Source: Archangium sp. (GTDB lineage Bacteria; Myxococcota; Myxococcia; Myxococcales; Myxococcaceae). From it: a DNA stretch of 37,668 nucleotides. Every line of letters begins with the position of its first letter. Within the stretch, counting starts at the first letter, position 1. The stretch spans positions 1-37,668 of the forward strand of contig JAUYRZ010000008.1 of the NCBI GenBank assembly GCA_030695565.1, given 5' to 3'. Positions 19,557-33,975 of this stretch are shown here, piece by piece. A program made the position numbers and the translations under genes. The notes under the pieces were generated by a model. It was not told the DNA's origin. It ran no database searches and saw only the letters and a program-made list of their open reading frames with translations.

Positions 19557-19916
19557 TCAGTCGGCGAGCAGTTTCTGAAGCTCGCCACTCTCCGCGAGCT
19601 TCTTCAAGTCACTGGCGCCACCGACGAAGGTGCCCTTCACGAAGACGAGCGGGAAGGTCGGCCAGCCCACCCAGATCTTCAGGGCGAGGCGGCGCCGCCA
19701 GCCGGAGAAATAGCTGCCGTACTGGAGGTACCGGTAAGGCACCTTCTGCTCTTCGAGGATCTTCCGGGCCTTCTTGCCGGGCGCCAGGCCCGACACCCCG
19801 ACCACCACCACCTTCTCATCGGTGACCGCCCTGGCCACCTCCGCAACGAGGTCGGAGTGGAAGGCCTTCTGCACTTCAGCCACGGCAGGAAGAACGGGGG
19901 GGCGAGCGGGTGTCAT
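19557..19916 (-). CDS. Glutaredoxin-like protein lacking all cysteines
   Basis: A 119-residue protein with the fold pattern of monothiol (CGFS-type) glutaredoxins. The strand DEKVVVVGVSG is followed by the helix KKARKILEEQKVPYRYLQYG, then GWPTFPLVFVKGTFVGGASD with the conserved T-x-P loop, and a closing L-x-E-S-G-E-L helix. The active-site loop, C-P-Y-C or C-G-F-S in known members, reads GLAPGKK, and the protein has no cysteine anywhere. It therefore cannot act as a thiol oxidoreductase or ligate an iron-sulfur cluster through cysteine; a binding or regulatory role is possible. It is divergent from a phytochelatin-synthase-like gene, with about 95 bp between the starts. The ATG at 19916 is chosen over a GTG at 19922. 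Confidence 0.75.
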   Translation of the reverse strand: MTPARPPVLPAVAEVQKAFHSDLVAEVARAVTDEKVVVVGVSGLAPGKKARKILEEQKVPYRYLQYGSYFSGWRRRLALKIWVGWPTFPLVFVKGTFVGGASDLKKLAESGELQKLLAD

Positions 19917-19979
19917 GTACACGCACCGTATCGGTCTCCCCTGCCCCGCGCATCAAGCAGCACAATTCTTCACGGAGGC

Positions 19980-20051
19980 ATGCGCACCAGTCCGTTACCC
20001 ATCGTGCCCCCATGCTCCGTTCTTCGATGCCGTTGCCGTCCATCAGGTTGA
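19980..20051 (+). CDS. Possible 23-codon Cys-containing leader ORF
   Basis: A short frame (MRTSPLPIVPPCSVLRCRCR then PSG, stop) starts at an ATG with GGAGG a few bases upstream, the best ribosome site in this stretch. It overlaps the start of the phytochelatin-synthase-like gene in another frame, ending inside that gene's first codons. Three of its 23 residues are cysteine. It could be a translated leader controlling the overlapping gene, or simply chance. Confidence 0.3.
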   Translation: MRTSPLPIVPPCSVLRCRCRPSG

Positions 20052-20590
20052 GCCCGACGTATCAGCGGCGTGAGCTGATCGAGAAGGCGTGGGAGCTCCC
20101 CGTCGCGAGGTTGTACGCCCCGCTTCTCTCCCAGAGCTTCAAGTCGATCTGTGGCCCGACCAGTGTCGCCAATGTGCTGCGTTCGATGGGCGTGCGCACC
20201 GGCACCAATCCATTCACCCGCTTCGGGGTCAGGGCGATGAGCCTCGACCAGGTGGTGAACGAGTCGCGCGAGGTGGTGCCAAAGGAGTGGCGCGTGAGCG
20301 CAGTGCGCACGAGGTCGGTCGAGCAACTGCGCGTACAGCTCCGGGAATCGAATGATCCGAGCCGGCGCTTCGTGAGCAACTTCGCGCGCTCCTCACTCTT
20401 CGGCGGCGGCAGTGGTCATCACTCCCCCCTCGGCGGCTATCTGGAAGCTGAAGATCTCGCGTTCGTGCTCGACGTGAACTCGGGCTTCGGCCCGTGGTTG
20501 GTCGAGGCAGCGCGACTGTTCGACGCGATGAACACTGGCGACTGGTCGGGTGGCCTCACCCGCGGTCTCGCGCGCTACGAACGCGAGTGA
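20012..20590 (+). CDS. Phytochelatin-synthase-like papain-fold protein
   Basis: A 192-residue protein matching the catalytic domain of phytochelatin synthases, clan CA peptidase-like enzymes that remove glycine from glutathione and, in eukaryotes, transfer gamma-Glu-Cys to make metal-binding peptides. The triad is in order: C47 in SFKSICGPTSVANVLRSMG, H136 in GSGHHSPLGGY and D154 in FVLDVNSGFGPWLV. The 18-residue spacing of H136 and D154 equals that of H162 and D180 in the Arabidopsis enzyme. It lacks the C-terminal Cys-rich metal-sensing domain, as bacterial homologues do; these mostly hydrolyse glutathione. No signal peptide is evident. The start at 20012 is uncertain (20027 is possible). 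Substrate in this organism is inferred. Confidence 0.82.
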   Translation: MLRSSMPLPSIRLSPTYQRRELIEKAWELPVARLYAPLLSQSFKSICGPTSVANVLRSMGVRTGTNPFTRFGVRAMSLDQVVNESREVVPKEWRVSAVRTRSVEQLRVQLRESNDPSRRFVSNFARSSLFGGGSGHHSPLGGYLEAEDLAFVLDVNSGFGPWLVEAARLFDAMNTGDWSGGLTRGLARYERE

Positions 20591-22288: not shown

Positions 22289-22786
22289 ATGGACGCAATC
22301 GCACTGTTGGAAGAGCAGCACGCAGAAGTGATGGAGATGATGGAGCTCCTCAAGGAGTCGTCGCCAGGGCGCGAGCGCAACGAGACGTTCAAGAAGCTGC
22401 AGCGCGCGTTGATGGCGCACATGGTGATCGAAGAAGAGCTGCTCTACCCCGTCGTCGCGAGCCGCACCGAAGAAGGCGAGCCGGTGGCGGAAGGGTACGA
22501 GGAGCACTCCGGAGCGCGCGTGTCGATGACCCGCTGTGCGCGAGCACTGAAGGAAGACGACTTGTTCAAGGTGCGCATCGGCGTGCTGAAGGAGATGATC
22601 TCGCATCACGTGAAAGAGGAGCGAGAGGCGATCCTTCCGCAAGTTCGCCAGGTGATGGACGCGAACGAGCGCAAAGAACTCGGAGCGCAGATGAAGGCAC
22701 TCTTCGAGAAGGTGCGGCGCACCGGTCGTGCAGGCGCCGGCCTCAATCGCAAGACCACGGCCAGAGAGCTCAGAGCCCTGAGCTGA
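22289..22786 (+). CDS. Hemerythrin (HHE) domain protein
   Basis: A 165-residue all-helical protein with the HHE cation-binding pattern. Candidate di-iron ligands are H11 (LLEEQHAEV), H44 with E48 (MAHMVIEEELLYP), H73 (YEEHSGA) and H106/H107 with E110 (MISHHVKEER), in the expected helix order. Bacterial single-domain hemerythrins bind oxygen or nitric oxide at a non-haem di-iron centre, or protect iron-sulfur proteins. A lysine/arginine-rich tail follows the domain. The ATG at 22289 has AGGAG at a good distance (aggagcagtc before the ATG). The gene is monocistronic, with a strong GC-rich hairpin 31 bp beyond its stop. Confidence 0.88.
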   Translation: MDAIALLEEQHAEVMEMMELLKESSPGRERNETFKKLQRALMAHMVIEEELLYPVVASRTEEGEPVAEGYEEHSGARVSMTRCARALKEDDLFKVRIGVLKEMISHHVKEEREAILPQVRQVMDANERKELGAQMKALFEKVRRTGRAGAGLNRKTTARELRALS

Positions 22787-22926: not shown

Positions 22927-23589
22927 ATGATCGTGAAGGAGCCGACCCCGGTCCGCGTGGCCCTCGTGGAGGATCACGCCCCGACGCGCGCGGCGCTGGA
23001 GAAACTGCTCGCTGAGTTTCCTGCGCTGGTGACGCTGGCCGGCTCGTTCGCGAGCGCGGAGGCGTTGCGGCCCGCACTCGGCCGGCTCGAGTTCGAGGTG
23101 GCCCTGATCGATCTCCACCTGCCTGGCACGAGCGGTCACGCGCTCATCGGCGAGCTGACCACGGCCGCGCCAGCCGTTCGTTCGCTGGCGCTCACCGCCT
23201 TCGACAACGAAGGAGACGTGCTGGAGGCAGTGCGAGCCGGTGCGTTCGGCTACCTCCTCAAGGACGAACCCAAGGCACGCCTGATCGCCGCCATCTGCGA
23301 GGCCGCCGCGGGCGCGCACCCCGTCTCGAGTCGCGTCGCCGGCTTCCTGTTCGCACACACCCGGCGCGCCCCGCCCCCGGTGTCCCTGAGCGATCGCGAG
23401 GAAGAGCTCGCCGGCTGTCTGTCGGAGGGGCTGAGCTACAGCGAGTGTGCCGGGCGCATGGGCATCAGCCTGGGCACCGTGCAGGACTACGTGAAGCGGC
23501 TGTACCGAAAGCTCGACGTCAACTCGAAGAAGGAAGTGCGAACGTGGGTCGCGATGCACTTCGCCCGCGAGCCCGGCAAGCTCAGCTGA
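22927..23589 (+). CDS. NarL/FixJ-family response regulator
   Basis: A 220-residue two-domain regulator. The receiver domain (about residues 8-125) has the acidic pocket VALVEDHAPT (D16), the phosphoacceptor D62 in ALIDLHLPGTSG, the T in SLALTAFDNE and the lysine in GYLLKDEPKA. The C-terminal LuxR-type HTH runs from about 152 to 214 (LSDREEELAGCLSEGLSYSE and ISLGTVQDYVKRLYRKLDVN). Its last eight bases overlap the end of the convergent kinase gene at 23582. Together with that kinase and the next one it makes a three-gene signalling locus. A NarL-type regulator is the normal partner of HisKA_3 kinases, which fits both neighbours. Confidence 0.9.
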   Translation: MIVKEPTPVRVALVEDHAPTRAALEKLLAEFPALVTLAGSFASAEALRPALGRLEFEVALIDLHLPGTSGHALIGELTTAAPAVRSLALTAFDNEGDVLEAVRAGAFGYLLKDEPKARLIAAICEAAAGAHPVSSRVAGFLFAHTRRAPPPVSLSDREEELAGCLSEGLSYSECAGRMGISLGTVQDYVKRLYRKLDVNSKKEVRTWVAMHFAREPGKLS

Positions 23590-24814
23590 ACCGTCGGGGC
23601 ACCACCACCCGAGCCCTCAGACCCGGCCCCCTCACCTCGAGGCTGCCGTCGAGCGCTTCGATCTGCTCGCGCACCACCTCGAACGCGTCGCTCACCCCGT
23701 CGGCGGGCTCGAGCCCATCTGCCTCGACGTTCAGCTCGAGCGTGGCTCCCGCGTCGAGCGAGAGCGTCACCTGGGTGGCGTTGGTGCGCTGCCCGCCGAG
23801 GCGCACCAGCTCCTGCGCGGCCCTCAAGAGGCCCAGGGCGACGGCTGAGCCGAGCCGCAGCGTCGCGTCTCCCGCGAGAGGCCGTCGCAGGTAGGTGAGC
23901 CCTGCGCACCGCTTCGAGCACGTCGCATCGACGAGCTTGGCCAGCTCACCGACGGTGCCCTCCTCCTTGCGCAGCCACCACACCACCGAGCGCAAGCCGG
24001 CCAGCACCTGCTCGGCGCGCTGCGCGAGGCCCGCTGCCTTCGGGTCGCGAGCGCTGGCGTCGCGCAGCTGGAGCACCAGCGCCATCACGTCGGCGCCCAC
24101 GCCGTCGTGCAGCTCGCGTGCGGCGCGCCCGCGCAGGTTGGTGACCTCGAGCCCCAGCGACGTGCGATCGAGCAGGTCGCGCTCGACACGCGCGCGCATG
24201 CTGCGGGAGGTCGACCGCGCCGTCATGCCGTACGCCACCCCGAAGGCGCCCAGCGAGAGCAGCACCACCGCGGCGCTCGCGGGGCGCCCGAGGCCTGCGC
24301 ACGCCCCGGCCACCAGCGAGTACCCCAGGAGCTCGACCGCGATGGTGCGGCGGCGCTCGTGGGCCGACTCGGCGCGCCACGCGAACCCGCGCGGAAGGCA
24401 CACCAGCAAGAAGAAGAGCGCCGCCTCGCCCGAGAGCACCAGCGAGGTCATCAGCGCGCTCGTTCGGCAGAGTCGATCGACCGCCGCCGTCACCCGGTAC
24501 AAGCGGTGTTCGGCGCCGAGCGCGTGGTAGGCGAGCGTCGCGAGGAAGAACGCGCTGGAGACCACCACCAGCAGCAGCGAGGTGCGCAAGAGGGAGAGCT
24601 CACCGAACAGCTGCGGCCAGGCGGCGCCGACCCACCAGCGGCCCCCCGCGAGGGCGAGCGCGGCGACCAGCGCACGTCCGGCCGTCGGCGTCGAACGGCC
24701 CCGGGCCTCCGCGCGCGCAGACGACTCGGCGAGCGCTCGGCGGAGCTCTTCGGCCAGCTCGTCGGGAGCGATCACGCCGCTCGGGTGGGCCGTCACCCGA
24801 AGGCTCGCTAGCAC
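23582..24814 (-). CDS. HisKA_3-type kinase with phospho-His but degenerate ATPase domain
   Basis: A 410-residue membrane protein. About six hydrophobic segments lie between residues 45 and 200. The dimerisation/phosphotransfer motif is intact: GRAARELHDGVGADVMALVL with H236. The ATPase domain is eroded. The N-box helix reads AQELVRLGGQRTN, with no asparagine where QELVRNAITHG occurs in its neighbour; the usual D-D-G-x-G box reads VEADGLEPADG; the G-L-x-G-M loop is replaced by GVSDAFEVV. It may thus be unable to phosphorylate itself but able to accept a phosphate in trans. It is convergent with the response regulator (8-base overlap) and divergent from the second kinase (50-bp gap). The start is a GTG at 24814 and is uncertain; 24796 is an alternative. 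Confidence 0.8.
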   Translation of the reverse strand: MLASLRVTAHPSGVIAPDELAEELRRALAESSARAEARGRSTPTAGRALVAALALAGGRWWVGAAWPQLFGELSLLRTSLLLVVVSSAFFLATLAYHALGAEHRLYRVTAAVDRLCRTSALMTSLVLSGEAALFFLLVCLPRGFAWRAESAHERRRTIAVELLGYSLVAGACAGLGRPASAAVVLLSLGAFGVAYGMTARSTSRSMRARVERDLLDRTSLGLEVTNLRGRAARELHDGVGADVMALVLQLRDASARDPKAAGLAQRAEQVLAGLRSVVWWLRKEEGTVGELAKLVDATCSKRCAGLTYLRRPLAGDATLRLGSAVALGLLRAAQELVRLGGQRTNATQVTLSLDAGATLELNVEADGLEPADGVSDAFEVVREQIEALDGSLEVRGPGLRARVVVPRRFS

Positions 24815-24864
24815 AGGCGATCGAATCAGGTGAGCGGGGTCGAGGGGGGGTAAGAGGCGCGGCG

Positions 24865-26085
24865 GTGGGCGACCGATTGCTCCAGGAGCAGCTGCGCATC
24901 ATCGACGAGCTCGAGGCGCGCGCTGAGGGAGAGCGGCGCTCCTGGTCGTTCACCGCGCAGTTGGCGATCGCCAACCTCGGGCTGGCGCTCGCCCCGCGGG
25001 TACCTCAGGCCGAGCGGGTGTTCGGCGCGCTGTCCGGTTCGCTCGCGCTGATGATCGTGATTCCGTGTTTCCTGCCGGTGTTCGTCAGCCTGTTCTTGTA
25101 CCGGCGTTGGGGCGCGAAGCGCCGCTGGTACCGGGGCTTTGACGCGCTCGAGGCGTTCTCGCTCTACGCGATCCCCCTGCTCTTCATCGCGGTCTCTGGG
25201 CTTCCCTGGTCGGTGCTCTGGGCGCTGTGCCCGTTCTCGGCGATCTTCTTCGCGCTCACCAAGCCGTTTCGCGGCGCCTTCTACGCCACGCTGATCGCCA
25301 CGAGCCATACCGCCCTGGCGCTCGCCCTGGTGGCCCTGGGCAACGAAACTGCGGGCGTGGTCTGTGTGGGCGTGGGCGCCGTCGCGCTGGCGGCGTTCGT
25401 GACCATCGCGCGATCGCAGCGCAACGCCGTGCTCGCCGAGGCCGACCGCAACGTGGCACGCACGGGGCTGGCCCAGCGGCAGCTCGACGAAGAGCGCGAT
25501 CGCATCGCCAGCTCCCTGACGAGCGGGGTGGCGCAGGAGCTCTCAGCGCTGGCAGAAGAGCTGAGCGCCGCGACCCGGGGGGAGCAGCCTTCGTTGGCGC
25601 TGGTGCAGGCGACGAAGCAGGCCCAGGCCGCGTTGCTGGAGCTCGGCGCGATCACCGCGGAGGGGCGCTCCGCGACGTTGCCGCGATCGTTGGGCGAGCT
25701 GGCTGCGTTGCTGGAGCGAAAGCTCGGAGCCCTGTGTGTGAACGCCGAGTACCGGCAGGTGCTCGTGGGGAACGGCGCGGCGGCCATCGCTCCGGCCACG
25801 GCGCTCGCTCTCCTTCGCATCGGGCAGGAGCTGGTGCGCAACGCGATCACCCACGGCGCGGCGCGCACGGTGACGGTGGAGCTCGCGCAGCTGGGCCACG
25901 AGGTCGGGTTGGCGGTGACCGATGACGGCAGCGGGCTGCGCGACGAGCGGCTGCGCAGCGCGACGGGTGGGCTCGACAACGTGCGCCGGTGGCTTCAGGA
26001 ACGGAGCGGCCGGCTGCAGCGCTCGAGCCCCGCTGACAAACGTTCGGGGACCGTGCTGCGGGTGACGATGCCGCTGGTGCCGTGA
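24865..26085 (+). CDS. HisKA_3-type kinase with intact ATPase domain but no phospho-His
   Basis: A 406-residue membrane kinase with six or so hydrophobic segments between residues 30 and 182, then a coiled helix. The region where the family has R-I-A-R-E-L-H-D reads RIASSLTSGVAQELSALAEE; the catalytic histidine is T219 and the next aspartate is S220. The ATPase domain is well kept: QELVRNAITHGAARTVTVEL (N326), VTDDGSGLRDE (D353, D354, G355, G357) and TGGLDNVRRWLQE. It could bind and use ATP but cannot autophosphorylate on the canonical residue. The GTG start at 24865 has GAGG seven bases upstream. Divergent from the histidine-bearing partner, it probably forms one functional kinase with it. 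Confidence 0.82.
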   Translation: MGDRLLQEQLRIIDELEARAEGERRSWSFTAQLAIANLGLALAPRVPQAERVFGALSGSLALMIVIPCFLPVFVSLFLYRRWGAKRRWYRGFDALEAFSLYAIPLLFIAVSGLPWSVLWALCPFSAIFFALTKPFRGAFYATLIATSHTALALALVALGNETAGVVCVGVGAVALAAFVTIARSQRNAVLAEADRNVARTGLAQRQLDEERDRIASSLTSGVAQELSALAEELSAATRGEQPSLALVQATKQAQAALLELGAITAEGRSATLPRSLGELAALLERKLGALCVNAEYRQVLVGNGAAAIAPATALALLRIGQELVRNAITHGAARTVTVELAQLGHEVGLAVTDDGSGLRDERLRSATGGLDNVRRWLQERSGRLQRSSPADKRSGTVLRVTMPLVP

Positions 26086-26190
26086 CCGGGCTTTCAGAAA
26101 TTCCACTTTCATGGGGCAAGCGTGGGTCTGGGCGGGAGCGCGGCGATCGCTATCGTCTGCGGTTTCCCCCGTTGGTCGAAAAGGAATGCA

Positions 26191-27024
26191 ATGAAACAAC
26201 TGTGGCTCGGAGTGATTTTCCTCGTTGGTTGTACGCAGGCTGAAGGTGTCGCAGGGCCCAAAGGTGAGACGGGCGCGACGGGGGCCGTCGGTGCGACGGG
26301 ACCGGCCGGCGCGGTCGGACCTGCAGGCCCGGTTGGACCCGCGGGCCCGGCGGGCGCAGACGGCGTGGCTGGCGCCGACGGCGTCGCTGGAGCTGCCGGT
26401 GCGCCGGGAGCCCCGGGAGCGGCCGGACCTGCCGGTTTCAGCCCGATCGTCGCGGCGATCACGGATGGTGGCTGCGCGACTGGCGGCACGTCGATCACTT
26501 CGGCAGACGGCGGCATCTCGCGGGTCTGCAACGGCGCAGCGGGGGCGCAGGGCGTCGCCGGCGCTCCGGGTGCACCGGGCACGCCGGGCACGCCTGGAGT
26601 TCAGGGCATTCAGGGCATTCAGGGGGTCGCCGGCCCTGGAGGCTTCATGTCGAGCTGCGGCGTGAATGGCAGTGGCACGGCGGCGGTGACGGACGTGGGC
26701 TGCGGTGAGGTGGTCACGGCGCCGCGCAACATGAGGTGCACCGCGACGGTGACCGGCTACGTGGCGCCCAGCGCCATCGGGCCCACCACCACCTTGTCGG
26801 TCATCAAGACGATCGGCGGCGTCAACTCGATCTTTGGAGGCGCCGGTGGCCCCAACGGCTTCACCTTCTGGCCCGCGTCGCCGTCCGGCGCGACGACGTC
26901 GTCGAACAGCTTCACCATCGAGGCAGCTGTCGCGAGCGGCACCAGCCTCAACTTCGGCTGCCGGGTGGCGAACATGACCGCGGCCACGCAGGTGGCGTGC
27001 AACGTGTCGTGGATCTGCTTCTGA
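26191..27024 (+). CDS. Collagen-like lipoprotein
   Basis: A 277-residue exported protein. MKQLWLGVIFLVGC is a lipoprotein signal with lipobox LVGC. Two Gly-X-Y tracts follow: about 22 triplets (beginning GVAGPKGETGATGAVG) and, after a 30-residue cysteine-containing interruption, about 12 triplets ending GVQGIQGIQGVAGPGG. The C-terminal 130 residues form a beta-rich globular part with five cysteines (CRVANMTAATQVACNVSWIC at the end). Bacterial collagen-like proteins form trimeric stalks at the surface; without hydroxyproline, stability comes from proline and charged residues. The ATG at 26191 is supported by AAGGA. A phage tail fibre is unlikely because of the lipobox and lack of phage neighbours. 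Confidence 0.85.
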   Translation: MKQLWLGVIFLVGCTQAEGVAGPKGETGATGAVGATGPAGAVGPAGPVGPAGPAGADGVAGADGVAGAAGAPGAPGAAGPAGFSPIVAAITDGGCATGGTSITSADGGISRVCNGAAGAQGVAGAPGAPGTPGTPGVQGIQGIQGVAGPGGFMSSCGVNGSGTAAVTDVGCGEVVTAPRNMRCTATVTGYVAPSAIGPTTTLSVIKTIGGVNSIFGGAGGPNGFTFWPASPSGATTSSNSFTIEAAVASGTSLNFGCRVANMTAATQVACNVSWICF

Positions 27025-30528: not shown

Positions 30529-33500
30529 ATGAACTCGCCTTCCCCGATTTCCGCTGAAGAAGCGCTGGCCCACACCGAGTGGGTGGGCCGACTCGCGCGG
30601 GCGCTGGTGGACACCCGGGAAGAAGCCGCCGACCTCGCGCAAGACGCCTGGGAGGCTGCGCTCGACACCACGGAACGGCCCCAATCTGAACTGCGCGCCT
30701 GGCTGACCGGCGTGCTGCGCAACCTCTCCGCGATGCGAGCGCGCACCAACACGCGGCGCACCCGCCGTGAGCTGGCCACCGAGGATCCCCAGCCCCCACT
30801 CCCTCCCGATGAACTGATCGCCCGGCTCGAGACTCAACAGCTCGTCGCCAAGCTCGTGCTCGAACTCGATGAGCCGCTCCGGATGGTGCTGTTCCTTCGC
30901 TACTACGAAGGCCTCTCCTCGGCGGAGATCGGCGGCCGGCTGGGCATTCCTGCCGGCACCGTGCGCTGGCGCCTCAAGGCCGGCGTCGACGAGCTCCGCG
31001 TGCAGCTCGATCACTCGTTCGGTGGTGACCGCCAACAGTGGATGGGCCTGGTCCTGCCTGCCCTGGCCGCACCCACCGCCGGGAGCGAATTCCTCAAAGG
31101 AGCGCTGTTCATGAAAGCCAACAAGGTCGTGGTGGGAATGGTCGGAGCGCTTCTTTCACTCTTCCTGATCGGCGCCTGGTGGCTGTGGCCTTCACCTGAG
31201 TCGCCCCGCCTCACCACGGGCGGTCCATCAGCGATGCGTGCCATTGAGCCCTCAACGCCCCGCCTCGGTGCACTGAGCCTGACCGCAAGCCCGACCCTCG
31301 ACGCCGAACGAGAGCAGCTGCCCGGCTGGCTGAGTCAGCCCGACGTGCCCCCTCGCCACGTCGCAGGCCGCGTCCTCATGGGCGGCCAACCCATGGCCGG
31401 AGCGCTCGTCCGTCTCGAGCCGCGGCCCCTCCCGGTTGGAGTTCGCGCCAAAGAACTGCGCTCCGCAGGCGACGGCACCTTCGACTTCGGCGAGCAGCCG
31501 GCCGCGATTCACATCGTCAGTGCCTCCGCTCCCGGCCGCACGGGCGCGCTGGTCGAGGTGGACCTGCGTGATCCTTCGGCTTCGCCTCCACCGGACGCCC
31601 TCGAGTTGGTGCTCACCTCCTGCGATGCCCGGCTCGTCGGGCACGTCTTCGATTCTTCCGGCGGCCCCATCGAACACGCGCGCCTCCGCCGCACCAACAG
31701 CATCGGCGTCGAGACCAACGCCCGCGGCGAGTTCGAGCTGTGCCTGCCCCCGGGCCCCAATGCGCTCCACGCCGACGCGCCCGGCTACGGCACAGTGCAA
31801 TTGACCGTGTTGGCGCTGGGCCGCACCGCGCGCGACGTGGTGTTGACGCCCGAAGCGTTCATCGTGGGCAAGGTCGTGTCGGCCGAGACCGGCGCTCCTG
31901 TCTCAGCAGCCCTGCTGTCTGCGTTCCCCGGCCAATACCTCGGCACCGACTCTGTGCTGGGCGGCATGGCGCTCTCGGGGCCTGATGGCCGCTTCCTCAT
32001 TCCCGTCGCACCGGGAGACTACCGAGTACGGGCGTCCGCCCCCAACGCGGAGAGCCCCTCAGCGGTCCTCGTCACCGCCATCGTGGGGAGACTGAGCGAC
32101 GAGGTGGTGCTGCGCGTGCGCGAACTCACGACGCTTCGTGGTCACGTTCGCAGCGAGGGCAAGCCCATCGCGGGCGCACAGGTGGTGGCCATCGCCACTT
32201 CCGGCGGCCAGCGCGCAGACGGCTTCAGCCAGCGCGATGGCAGCTTCACCCTCACGCGCGTCCCCCGGGGACAAGTGACCTTCACCGCGGCTCCGTTCGC
32301 CGTGTTCTCGCCCGGGCGCGTCTCCCTCACGAAGGTCGAGGAGACCGTGGAGCTCGAGGTCAAGCGCCAGGGCTCGCTGCGCGGCCTGGTGACCCGCGCG
32401 GGCAAACCCGTGGCCGGAGCGAAGATCCAGGTGACCTCAGGCGTGATCGAGTTCAACGCGACCAGCGATCTGACCGGCCACTACGCCGTGCTGGGTTTGC
32501 CTGGAGGTCGCTTCCGGGTGCTGGCGAGCAGCGTGACGGCCGGAGGGTTCGTCGATCGCGAGGGCGTCGTCCTGGCCGAGCGCGAAGACCGCGCACTCGA
32601 TCTCGAACTCAGCAACGCAGCCAGCATCGCGGGACAGGTGGTGAACGCCGAAGGCACGCCAGTGGCCGGAGCCGTCGTCGTCTTCACGCACACCAAAACG
32701 GGTGATGAGGGCAAGTGGGTGACCGACGCCGACGGAAGGTTTCTCTGCAACCAGATGACCGGAGGCGGTGAGTACCAGCCGCAGGTGTTTCCCACGGAGA
32801 CCTCACGCACGCCCTACTCCCCCGCCGGCGCGCCCTTCTCTGCCACCCACCTGGTGGACGGGAACGCGCACGTCGAAGGGGTGACGCTGGCGATCAAGTA
32901 CGAGCGATTGCAGATCAGCGGCCGCGTGGTGGACCCGGATGGCGTGCCGATTCCCGATGCGAAGATTCGCGCTCAATCGGCGCCGCCCGGCGAGACGCTC
33001 GCCTGGAAGTCGTGGGTGGTGCTGCCCTCTGCCATCAGCGACGCACAAGGCGGCTTCACCCTCGACGCGCTGACCAGCGGCCCCTGGGCGCTGCAGGCGC
33101 GAGCACCCGACGGTTCAGAAGCCGTCGTCAACGGCGTGGCCGCGGGGTCCAAAGAGGTGGTGGTCACGCTGCGCCCCGCCGGCGGCATTGAAGGAACCCT
33201 CGTCGGCTACGAGGCGCCCCCCGCCATCTACGCGCGTTCGATCGACACCCTGCGCATGATTCCCGGGCAGGTCGACGGCGCTCGCTTCCACCTCAAGCTG
33301 CCGGCGGGCAGCTACCTCGTCTCGGCGATGAACGTCGCCGAGGGTGACGTGCAGCGGGTCGAGGTGCGCGAGGGCGCGATCACCAAGGTGACGATGACCA
33401 GTCATGGGAAAGCGGTGATCACCGGGAGGGTGACGGATCACCTGACGCACGCTCCGATCCCCGACCTCATCTGTCAAACCGTGATCGCCGTGGAGGGCCA

Positions 33501-33975
33501 GGGCGGAGTCACGAACTGGGATCTCGAGTCCGCCCCGAAAACCGACGCGACCGGCACGTTCGTCGCAGATCCTTCGCCCGCGGGAGATCTGTTCGTGGGC
33601 TGCTTCGGTGACTGGCGTGAGTACAGCAAGGCCTCCGCGCTCATCACCGTCGCCAAAGGAGGCCGTGCGACGGTCAACCTCGAGGCCGTGAAGCTGATCT
33701 CGCCCGACGCTCCGGGCGATATCGGCGTCTCCTTCGGCGACACCGCCACGCCGCTCATTCGTGCCGTGAAGGCCGGCAGTCCGGCAGCGCGAGCGGGCGT
33801 TGCCGCGGGCGACGTGGTGGTCGCCGTCGATGGACTCCCCACCGCGCCGCTCGATGCGTCGGGTGTCGAAGCGCTCATCGGCAATCACGCTCCGGGCTCG
33901 AGGGTGGCGATGACGCTGCTGCGTGGGACGCAGCGGCGCGAAGTGACGCTCACCACCACGGCACTGGGTCGTTGA
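30529..33975 (+). CDS. ECF sigma factor fused to a membrane segment, carboxypeptidase-regulatory-like repeats and PDZ domain
   Basis: A 1148-residue single open frame. Residues 13-85 are a sigma-2 region (REEAADLAQDAWEAALD) and 105-160 a sigma-4 region (MVLFLRYYEGLSSAEIGGRL and GIPAGTVRWRLKAGVDELRV). A membrane helix at about 200-218 (VVVGMVGALLSLFLIGAWWL) follows. From about 275 to 1030 come repeated Ig-like units of the carboxypeptidase D regulatory type, each with G-x-V-x-x-x-x-G-x-P-V-x-G-A-x-V (for example GQVVNAEGTPVAGAVVVFTH). The last 85 residues are a PDZ domain (SPAARAGVAAGDVVVAVDG). The topology puts the sigma part in the cytoplasm and the repeats outside. ECF factors with large C-terminal extensions are known in myxobacteria and planctomycetes; release by proteolysis is inferred. 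An internal start may make a sigma-less form. Confidence 0.85.
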   Translation: MNSPSPISAEEALAHTEWVGRLARALVDTREEAADLAQDAWEAALDTTERPQSELRAWLTGVLRNLSAMRARTNTRRTRRELATEDPQPPLPPDELIARLETQQLVAKLVLELDEPLRMVLFLRYYEGLSSAEIGGRLGIPAGTVRWRLKAGVDELRVQLDHSFGGDRQQWMGLVLPALAAPTAGSEFLKGALFMKANKVVVGMVGALLSLFLIGAWWLWPSPESPRLTTGGPSAMRAIEPSTPRLGALSLTASPTLDAEREQLPGWLSQPDVPPRHVAGRVLMGGQPMAGALVRLEPRPLPVGVRAKELRSAGDGTFDFGEQPAAIHIVSASAPGRTGALVEVDLRDPSASPPPDALELVLTSCDARLVGHVFDSSGGPIEHARLRRTNSIGVETNARGEFELCLPPGPNALHADAPGYGTVQLTVLALGRTARDVVLTPEAFIVGKVVSAETGAPVSAALLSAFPGQYLGTDSVLGGMALSGPDGRFLIPVAPGDYRVRASAPNAESPSAVLVTAIVGRLSDEVVLRVRELTTLRGHVRSEGKPIAGAQVVAIATSGGQRADGFSQRDGSFTLTRVPRGQVTFTAAPFAVFSPGRVSLTKVEETVELEVKRQGSLRGLVTRAGKPVAGAKIQVTSGVIEFNATSDLTGHYAVLGLPGGRFRVLASSVTAGGFVDREGVVLAEREDRALDLELSNAASIAGQVVNAEGTPVAGAVVVFTHTKTGDEGKWVTDADGRFLCNQMTGGGEYQPQVFPTETSRTPYSPAGAPFSATHLVDGNAHVEGVTLAIKYERLQISGRVVDPDGVPIPDAKIRAQSAPPGETLAWKSWVVLPSAISDAQGGFTLDALTSGPWALQARAPDGSEAVVNGVAAGSKEVVVTLRPAGGIEGTLVGYEAPPAIYARSIDTLRMIPGQVDGARFHLKLPAGSYLVSAMNVAEGDVQRVEVREGAITKVTMTSHGKAVITGRVTDHLTHAPIPDLICQTVIAVEGQGGVTNWDLESAPKTDATGTFVADPSPAGDLFVGCFGDWREYSKASALITVAKGGRATVNLEAVKLISPDAPGDIGVSFGDTATPLIRAVKAGSPAARAGVAAGDVVVAVDGLPTAPLDASGVEALIGNHAPGSRVAMTLLRGTQRREVTLTTTALGR
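31098..31113 (+). promoter_or_regulatory. Strong internal ribosome site and ATG within the ECF fusion gene
   Basis: AGGAG at 31098-31102 (within AAAGGAG) lies eight bases before an in-frame ATG at 31111, codon 195, just ahead of the membrane helix. Initiation here would make a 954-residue product beginning MKANKVVVGMVGALLSLFLI, which reads like a signal anchor, without the sigma domains. The main ATG at 30529 has no comparable site. Confidence 0.45.

Follow-up and report, generated by a model that had tools for sequence, protein, structure and literature searches.

At positions 22927 to 26085 of the window, by which we mean the whole analysed stretch of 37,668 nucleotides from an 8.5 Mb, Myxococcaceae-type genome, three adjacent genes encode a NarL-type response regulator (RR) and two membrane kinases, here named K1 and K2. 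RR and K1 are convergent and overlap tail to tail by 8 bases, as the preliminary description of this DNA had noted for a NarL-type regulator and the first kinase. K1 and K2 are divergently transcribed from a gap of 50 bases, which presumably holds the promoters of both genes. The following features were assigned, with the evidence given in brackets:

22927..23589, plus strand: RR, receiver and LuxR/NarL-type HTH, 220 amino acids (Pfam, ortholog identity, alignment)
23110..23112, plus strand: Asp62 of RR, predicted phosphorylation site (alignment of eight related regulators)
23582..24814, minus strand: K1, membrane kinase; HisKA_3 phospho-acceptor domain present, catalytic (CA) domain degenerate; 410 amino acids (Pfam, alignments; CA fold in the AlphaFold2 model)
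23798..23800, minus strand: Leu339 of K1, taking the place of the essential Asn of the N box (K1 aligned with K2 and the 12 one-gene kinases)
24107..24109, minus strand: His236 of K1, predicted phospho-acceptor (ARELHDGVGA, identical in the ortholog)
24815..24864, no strand: gap of 50 bases that separates the start codons of the divergent genes K1 and K2 (gene positions)
24865..26085, plus strand: K2, membrane kinase; CA domain intact, DHp domain without His; 406 amino acids (Pfam, alignments; CA matches VraS and DesK structures)
25519..25524, plus strand: Thr219-Ser220 of K2, replacing His-Asp (Leu-Ala in the ortholog; alignment)
25534..25536, plus strand: Gln224 of K2, at His+5, where the phosphatase Gln of HisKA_3 kinases lies; K1 has Ala (alignment; role of Gln, PMC5231405)
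25840..25842, plus strand: Asn326 of K2, N box (kept in the orthologs of G023 and G006)
25921..25935, plus strand: DDGSG, G1 box of K2 (DDGKG in G023, DDGRG in G006)

Upstream of the trio lie genes for a short phytochelatin-synthase-like protein (19910-20590, plus strand; Pfam, 78.9 bits) and a hemerythrin-domain protein (22289-22786, plus strand). Directly downstream of K2, a lipoprotein-like protein with collagen-type GXX repeats is encoded (26122-27024, plus strand; Pfam Collagen, 45.7 bits). Further along, an ORF of 1148 amino acids (30529-33975, plus strand) has regions 2 and 4 of an ECF-type sigma-70 factor at its head, then some six carboxypeptidase-regulatory-like domains and, at the C-terminus, a PDZ domain, i.e. 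a sigma factor fused to repeats of a usually extracytoplasmic kind.

Distribution of the catalytic motifs

K1 carries the motif ARELHDGVG with H236 and matches HisKA_3 (PF07730) in Pfam with 24.8 bits at a cut-off of 24. Its N box has Leu339 where Asn is expected (QELVRL), Ala365 replaces the adenine-binding Asp of DxGxG in the G1 box (VEADGLEP), the GxG of the ATP lid is gone, and no HATPase match was obtained in Pfam at E<=1. For K2, T219-S220 stand at the His-Asp position (SLTSGVAQ), Pfam gave no HisKA_3 match, and the DHp region contains no other His, either in the window or in the ortholog from G023 described below. The N box QELVRNAITHG (N326) and the DDGSG box (D353-G357) of K2 are intact, and HATPase_c (PF02518) was matched with 39.1 bits at a cut-off of 26.4. 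Thereby, the residues and domain matches bear out what had been described for both proteins, namely a K1 that keeps H236 with eroded N and G boxes and a K2 that keeps N326 and DDGSG with T219-S220 in place of His-Asp. As read from these motifs, the His and ATP functions are divided between two proteins, as a split or bipartite kinase requires.

RR matches Response_reg with 57.8 bits and GerE with 39 bits in Pfam. Its receiver site is intact, the acidic residues, Asp62, Thr and Lys being conserved in an alignment of eight related regulators. With acidic pocket, Asp, Thr and Lys followed by a GerE HTH, the predicted protein fits the NarL/LuxR type.

For both kinases, single-chain AlphaFold2 models were calculated from alignments of 7 sequences and reached pLDDT values of 81 (K2) and 76 (K1). 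In both models, a bundle of membrane helices continues as a long DHp helix, which is followed by the second helix of DHp and by a CA sandwich of the Bergerat type. The best Foldseek matches of both models were DesK structures, and the CA domain of K2 matched that of VraS with a TM-score of 0.78. The whole-chain TM-scores were low and the rmsd high; the low scores are due to a differing arrangement of DHp and CA, so the matches identify the fold and not the pose. According to its model, K1 appears to keep the CA fold though its ATP site is lost.

Conservation of the split and comparison with one-gene kinases

A protein search of 60 relatives and 96 genomes of the family yielded a complete orthologous trio in the Myxococcaceae MAG SSF41, which belongs to another genus (G023 contig 47, the same locus as L062; L034/L062). 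Gene order and orientations are identical to those of the window, and the K1-K2 gap is also shorter than 100 bases if K1 starts at the conserved ATG. The ORF directly upstream of this trio differs from that in the window and is lipoprotein-like. Identities between the window and G023 are 41% for K1, 44% for K2 and 65% for RR. The K1 protein of G023 keeps ARELHDGVGAE and has lost the N and G boxes, again with Ala for the G1 Asp; in the K2 protein, QELVRNAVVHG and DDGKG are intact and Leu-Ala stands at the His-Asp position. The sole other complete pair found is thus in the identical complementary state, so that the check proposed in the preliminary description, whether the paired losses are conserved together in relatives, came out positive. 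No ortholog of K1 or K2 had full motifs, the observation that had been named as refuting; homologs with full motifs were exclusively one-gene kinases without a partner.

A third genus contributes a fragment. In G006 (MAG bin.172), the last 149 residues of K2 with intact N box and DDGRG are encoded at the very start of a contig, directly followed by an RR gene (57% identity). Since this contig begins inside K2 and lacks its first half, the absence of K1 there is uninformative. Both genes lie on one strand of this contig (contig 340), with RR after K2 and not beyond K1; linkage is kept, order is not. Between the stop codon of this K2 gene and RR, its end of approximately 80 bases is tandemly repeated (L006, 380-585). 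A search for further split pairs covered 145 genomes of the order, 195 genomes sampled from the phylum and, by a conserved-peptide scan, 84,980 species; it found them only in the window's genome (G000), G023 and, as a fragment, G006. The five congeners of the window's genome lack the trio, which is therefore not a core function.

For comparison, 12 one-gene kinases of the same subfamily from two genera (g5, g8) were used, all of which keep His, Asn and the DDGxG box; each of those whose neighbours were read adjoins a similar RR. In neither G000 nor G023 did we find an intact one-gene kinase of this subfamily that could take over the task of the pair. Among the other four HisKA_3 matches in the window's genome, two have full motifs (L139, L141), and the motif script made no call on the remaining two. 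Since the same two losses recur in a trio of only about 41-45% identity, and the motifs are kept in 12 of 12 one-gene relatives, the paired losses go beyond chance.

The positions invariant among the 12 one-gene kinases, 17 in DHp and 19 in CA, served as reference columns. K1 keeps 12 (window) and 10 (ortholog) of the DHp columns and 8 and 5 of the CA columns; for K2, the respective numbers are 7 and 5 in DHp and 15 and 14 in CA. Pooled, DHp versus CA retention differs between K1 and K2 with p = 0.005 (Fisher), a value to be read with partly dependent cells, as orthologs share ancestry, with DHp/CA boundaries set by us, and with just two complete pairs, a small and related sample. Between the genera, DHp identity is 55% for K1 and 40% for K2, and CA identity is 31% for K1 and 48% for K2; the reference one-gene pairs G062-G061 and G062-G118 show approximately 55% in DHp and 45% in CA. 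This pattern indicates that each protein held the domain that its partner let drift, K1 holding DHp and K2 holding CA. Third-position GC is approximately 0.9 in every part of both genes in both genomes, including the eroded CA part of K1 (0.89-0.90), and this strong codon-position bias argues that the reading frames are maintained.

In a maximum-likelihood tree, K1 and K2 grouped (support 87/76) beside the one-gene kinases; trees without this grouping were not rejected (p 0.24 and 0.22). The favoured origin is that K1 and K2 are sister copies which arose by duplication followed by complementary loss.

Proposed phosphotransfer and alternative explanations

The reciprocal-loss pair is well supported by comparison, and from it we infer a heteromer and its phosphotransfer. 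We consider it likely that the heteromer is obligate, K2 phosphorylating His236 of K1 in trans and K1 passing the phosphate to RR. This supports the reading of the preliminary description, a heteromeric kinase in which one membrane protein phosphorylates the other. On this view, a single HisKA_3 membrane sensor kinase would have given rise to two copies, K1 and K2, which diverged and share out its catalytic work. Because both keep the multi-helix membrane sensor part and two DHp helices, the predicted physical pairing would most likely occur via the DHp four-helix bundle. K2 would bind ATP and phosphorylate His236 of K1 across the DHp interface, phospho-K1 would in turn phosphorylate the adjacent NarL-type RR at Asp62, and phosphorylated RR would change transcription. 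Neither protein alone would autophosphorylate, and output would need both sensors, present and compatible, which suggests a two-input (AND-like) logic. Whether the CA of a DHp dimer reaches the His of its own chain or that of the partner depends on loop handedness (PMC6798134). The split would work only if CA reaches the partner's His; with cis autophosphorylation in the DHp dimer, a simple heterodimer would fail and a higher-order contact would be needed.

Alternatively, K1 could be phosphorylated by the ATP domain of another histidine kinase, with K2 as a pseudokinase that only modulates K1, similar to the allosteric partners DivL for CckA and RetS for GacS. Such modulation between histidine kinases is documented (PMC9491836, PMC12189002), and other HisKA_3 kinases of these genomes could cross-talk with K1. 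We regard this explanation as quite unlikely: the intact ATP site, which a pure modulator would not need, is the most conserved part of K2 in three genomes, and in each of these a regulator of the same kind lies beside K2.

A further aspect of K2, not raised in the preliminary description, concerns dephosphorylation. At the His+5 position, K2 has Gln (Gln224) and K1 has Ala in both genomes; for the one-gene relatives, the alignment shows Ala, Thr or Ser. In HisKA_3 kinases, this position holds the phosphatase Gln (Gln193 in DesK), and Gln, not His, carries the phosphatase reaction, for which His was dispensable in NarX (PMC5231405). As a lead, K2 may also hold the off-switch, despite missing the neighbouring Asp. 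A three-way split, in which K1 would be a pure phospho-donor without phosphatase Gln and K2 would combine the ATP site with the phosphatase Gln, seems unlikely. If true, kinase and phosphatase would sit on the partner that cannot be phosphorylated, and the pair would be an evolved switch with its on/off balance set by the K1:K2 ratio and two membrane signals.

The same Gln could be taken to mean that K2 is a phosphatase or ATP-gated off-switch that dephosphorylates the regulator, with K1 phosphorylated by another donor. This is very unlikely as the whole explanation, as it leaves the source of the K1 phosphate unexplained; moreover, the DHp domain of K2 is less conserved than that of K1, and the Asp beside His, which contacts the regulator in DesK (PMC5231405), is also lost. 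Such an off-switch could, however, coexist with the trans-phosphorylating heteromer. That one or both genes are pseudogenes decaying after duplication, their complementary pattern being accidental, would fit the poorly conserved catalytic domain of K1 and the patchy, rare occurrence of the trio, but was rejected as extremely improbable on codon bias and conservation: the frames are full-length and strongly biased by codon position in the two genomes, at approximately 41-45% identity, the ARELHDGVGA and QELVRNA blocks are conserved, a DesK-type fold is predicted for both proteins, and the reciprocal state is identical in the second genus.

Relation to known split kinases and significance

CheA3/CheA4 of Rhodobacter sphaeroides is a proven split kinase, and the precedent for divided labour that had been seen in it holds (PMC3591291). 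Like K1/K2 as proposed here, it consists of two proteins, neither autophosphorylating, one with the His and the other with the ATP domain (PMC3591291). In contrast to K1/K2, these are soluble chemotaxis CheA proteins without membrane sensors that lack entire domains (P1, P3-P4) instead of being eroded at single points, and their regulator is CheY6, not a NarL-type DNA-binding protein (PMC3591291).

FasB/FasC-FasA of group A Streptococcus resembles K1/K2/RR in combining two membrane kinase-like proteins with one regulator, a likeness in mode of action only. Its kinase and regulator class differs from HisKA_3/NarL. FasB and FasC, with six transmembrane segments each, are the nearest published membrane example; in two-hybrid assays they formed heterodimers and no homodimers (PMC12675982). 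His246 of FasC is the proposed acceptor, the kinase domain of FasC is dispensable, and FasB supplies the kinase (PMC12675982). Unlike K2, FasB keeps a candidate His (H284), so that the losses do not appear to be fully reciprocal (PMC12675982). The preliminary description had called a two-membrane-sensor HisKA_3 version apparently unusual; with FasB/FasC, a version with two membrane kinases has a published precedent (PMC12675982). No natural HisKA_3 pair with reciprocal loss was found in the open full-text literature, which is weak evidence of absence.

DesK-DesR and VraS, HisKA_3 kinases with NarL-type regulators, are similar to K1/K2 in the sequence of the cytoplasmic half and in predicted fold, but are homodimers encoded by one gene, in which a single chain carries all motifs. 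HK1/HK2-TcrA of Mycobacterium tuberculosis (Rv0600c/Rv0601c/Rv0602c) comprises adjacent kinase genes and a regulator, with the ATP domain on one kinase and the His domain on the other. Unlike in K1/K2, a whole domain is missing from each protein, and the class is not HisKA_3/NarL. HK1 and HK2 cooperate with TcrA (PMC9274095). Hik36-Hik43/Rre6 of Synechocystis shares with K1/K2 a kinase spread over two genes and a common regulator, with interaction in two-hybrid assays; it differs in being CheA-type with an HPt piece, in genes lying far apart, and in showing no paired loss in duplicated full-length kinases (PMC7656254).

K1/K2 would extend the known split-kinase principle of CheA3/CheA4 and FasBC to the HisKA_3/NarL class. 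Classic laboratory heterodimers combine His-minus and Asn-minus mutants of one kinase. The K1/K2 locus looks like the evolutionary fixation of such a heterodimer, with one-gene relatives remaining for comparison. ChrS, a laboratory-evolved pseudokinase, belongs to the HisKA_3 class. It demonstrates that such losses can be tolerable and useful (PMC9491836). For genome annotation, the locus is a warning: domain scans would call K1 a kinase without ATP domain and K2 an ATPase without His domain, and would overlook that both together may be one enzyme. K1/K2 would provide a clean natural test of trans phosphorylation in HisKA_3 kinases, of the origin of pseudokinases and of the published theory that split kinases give switch-like responses (PMC3591291).
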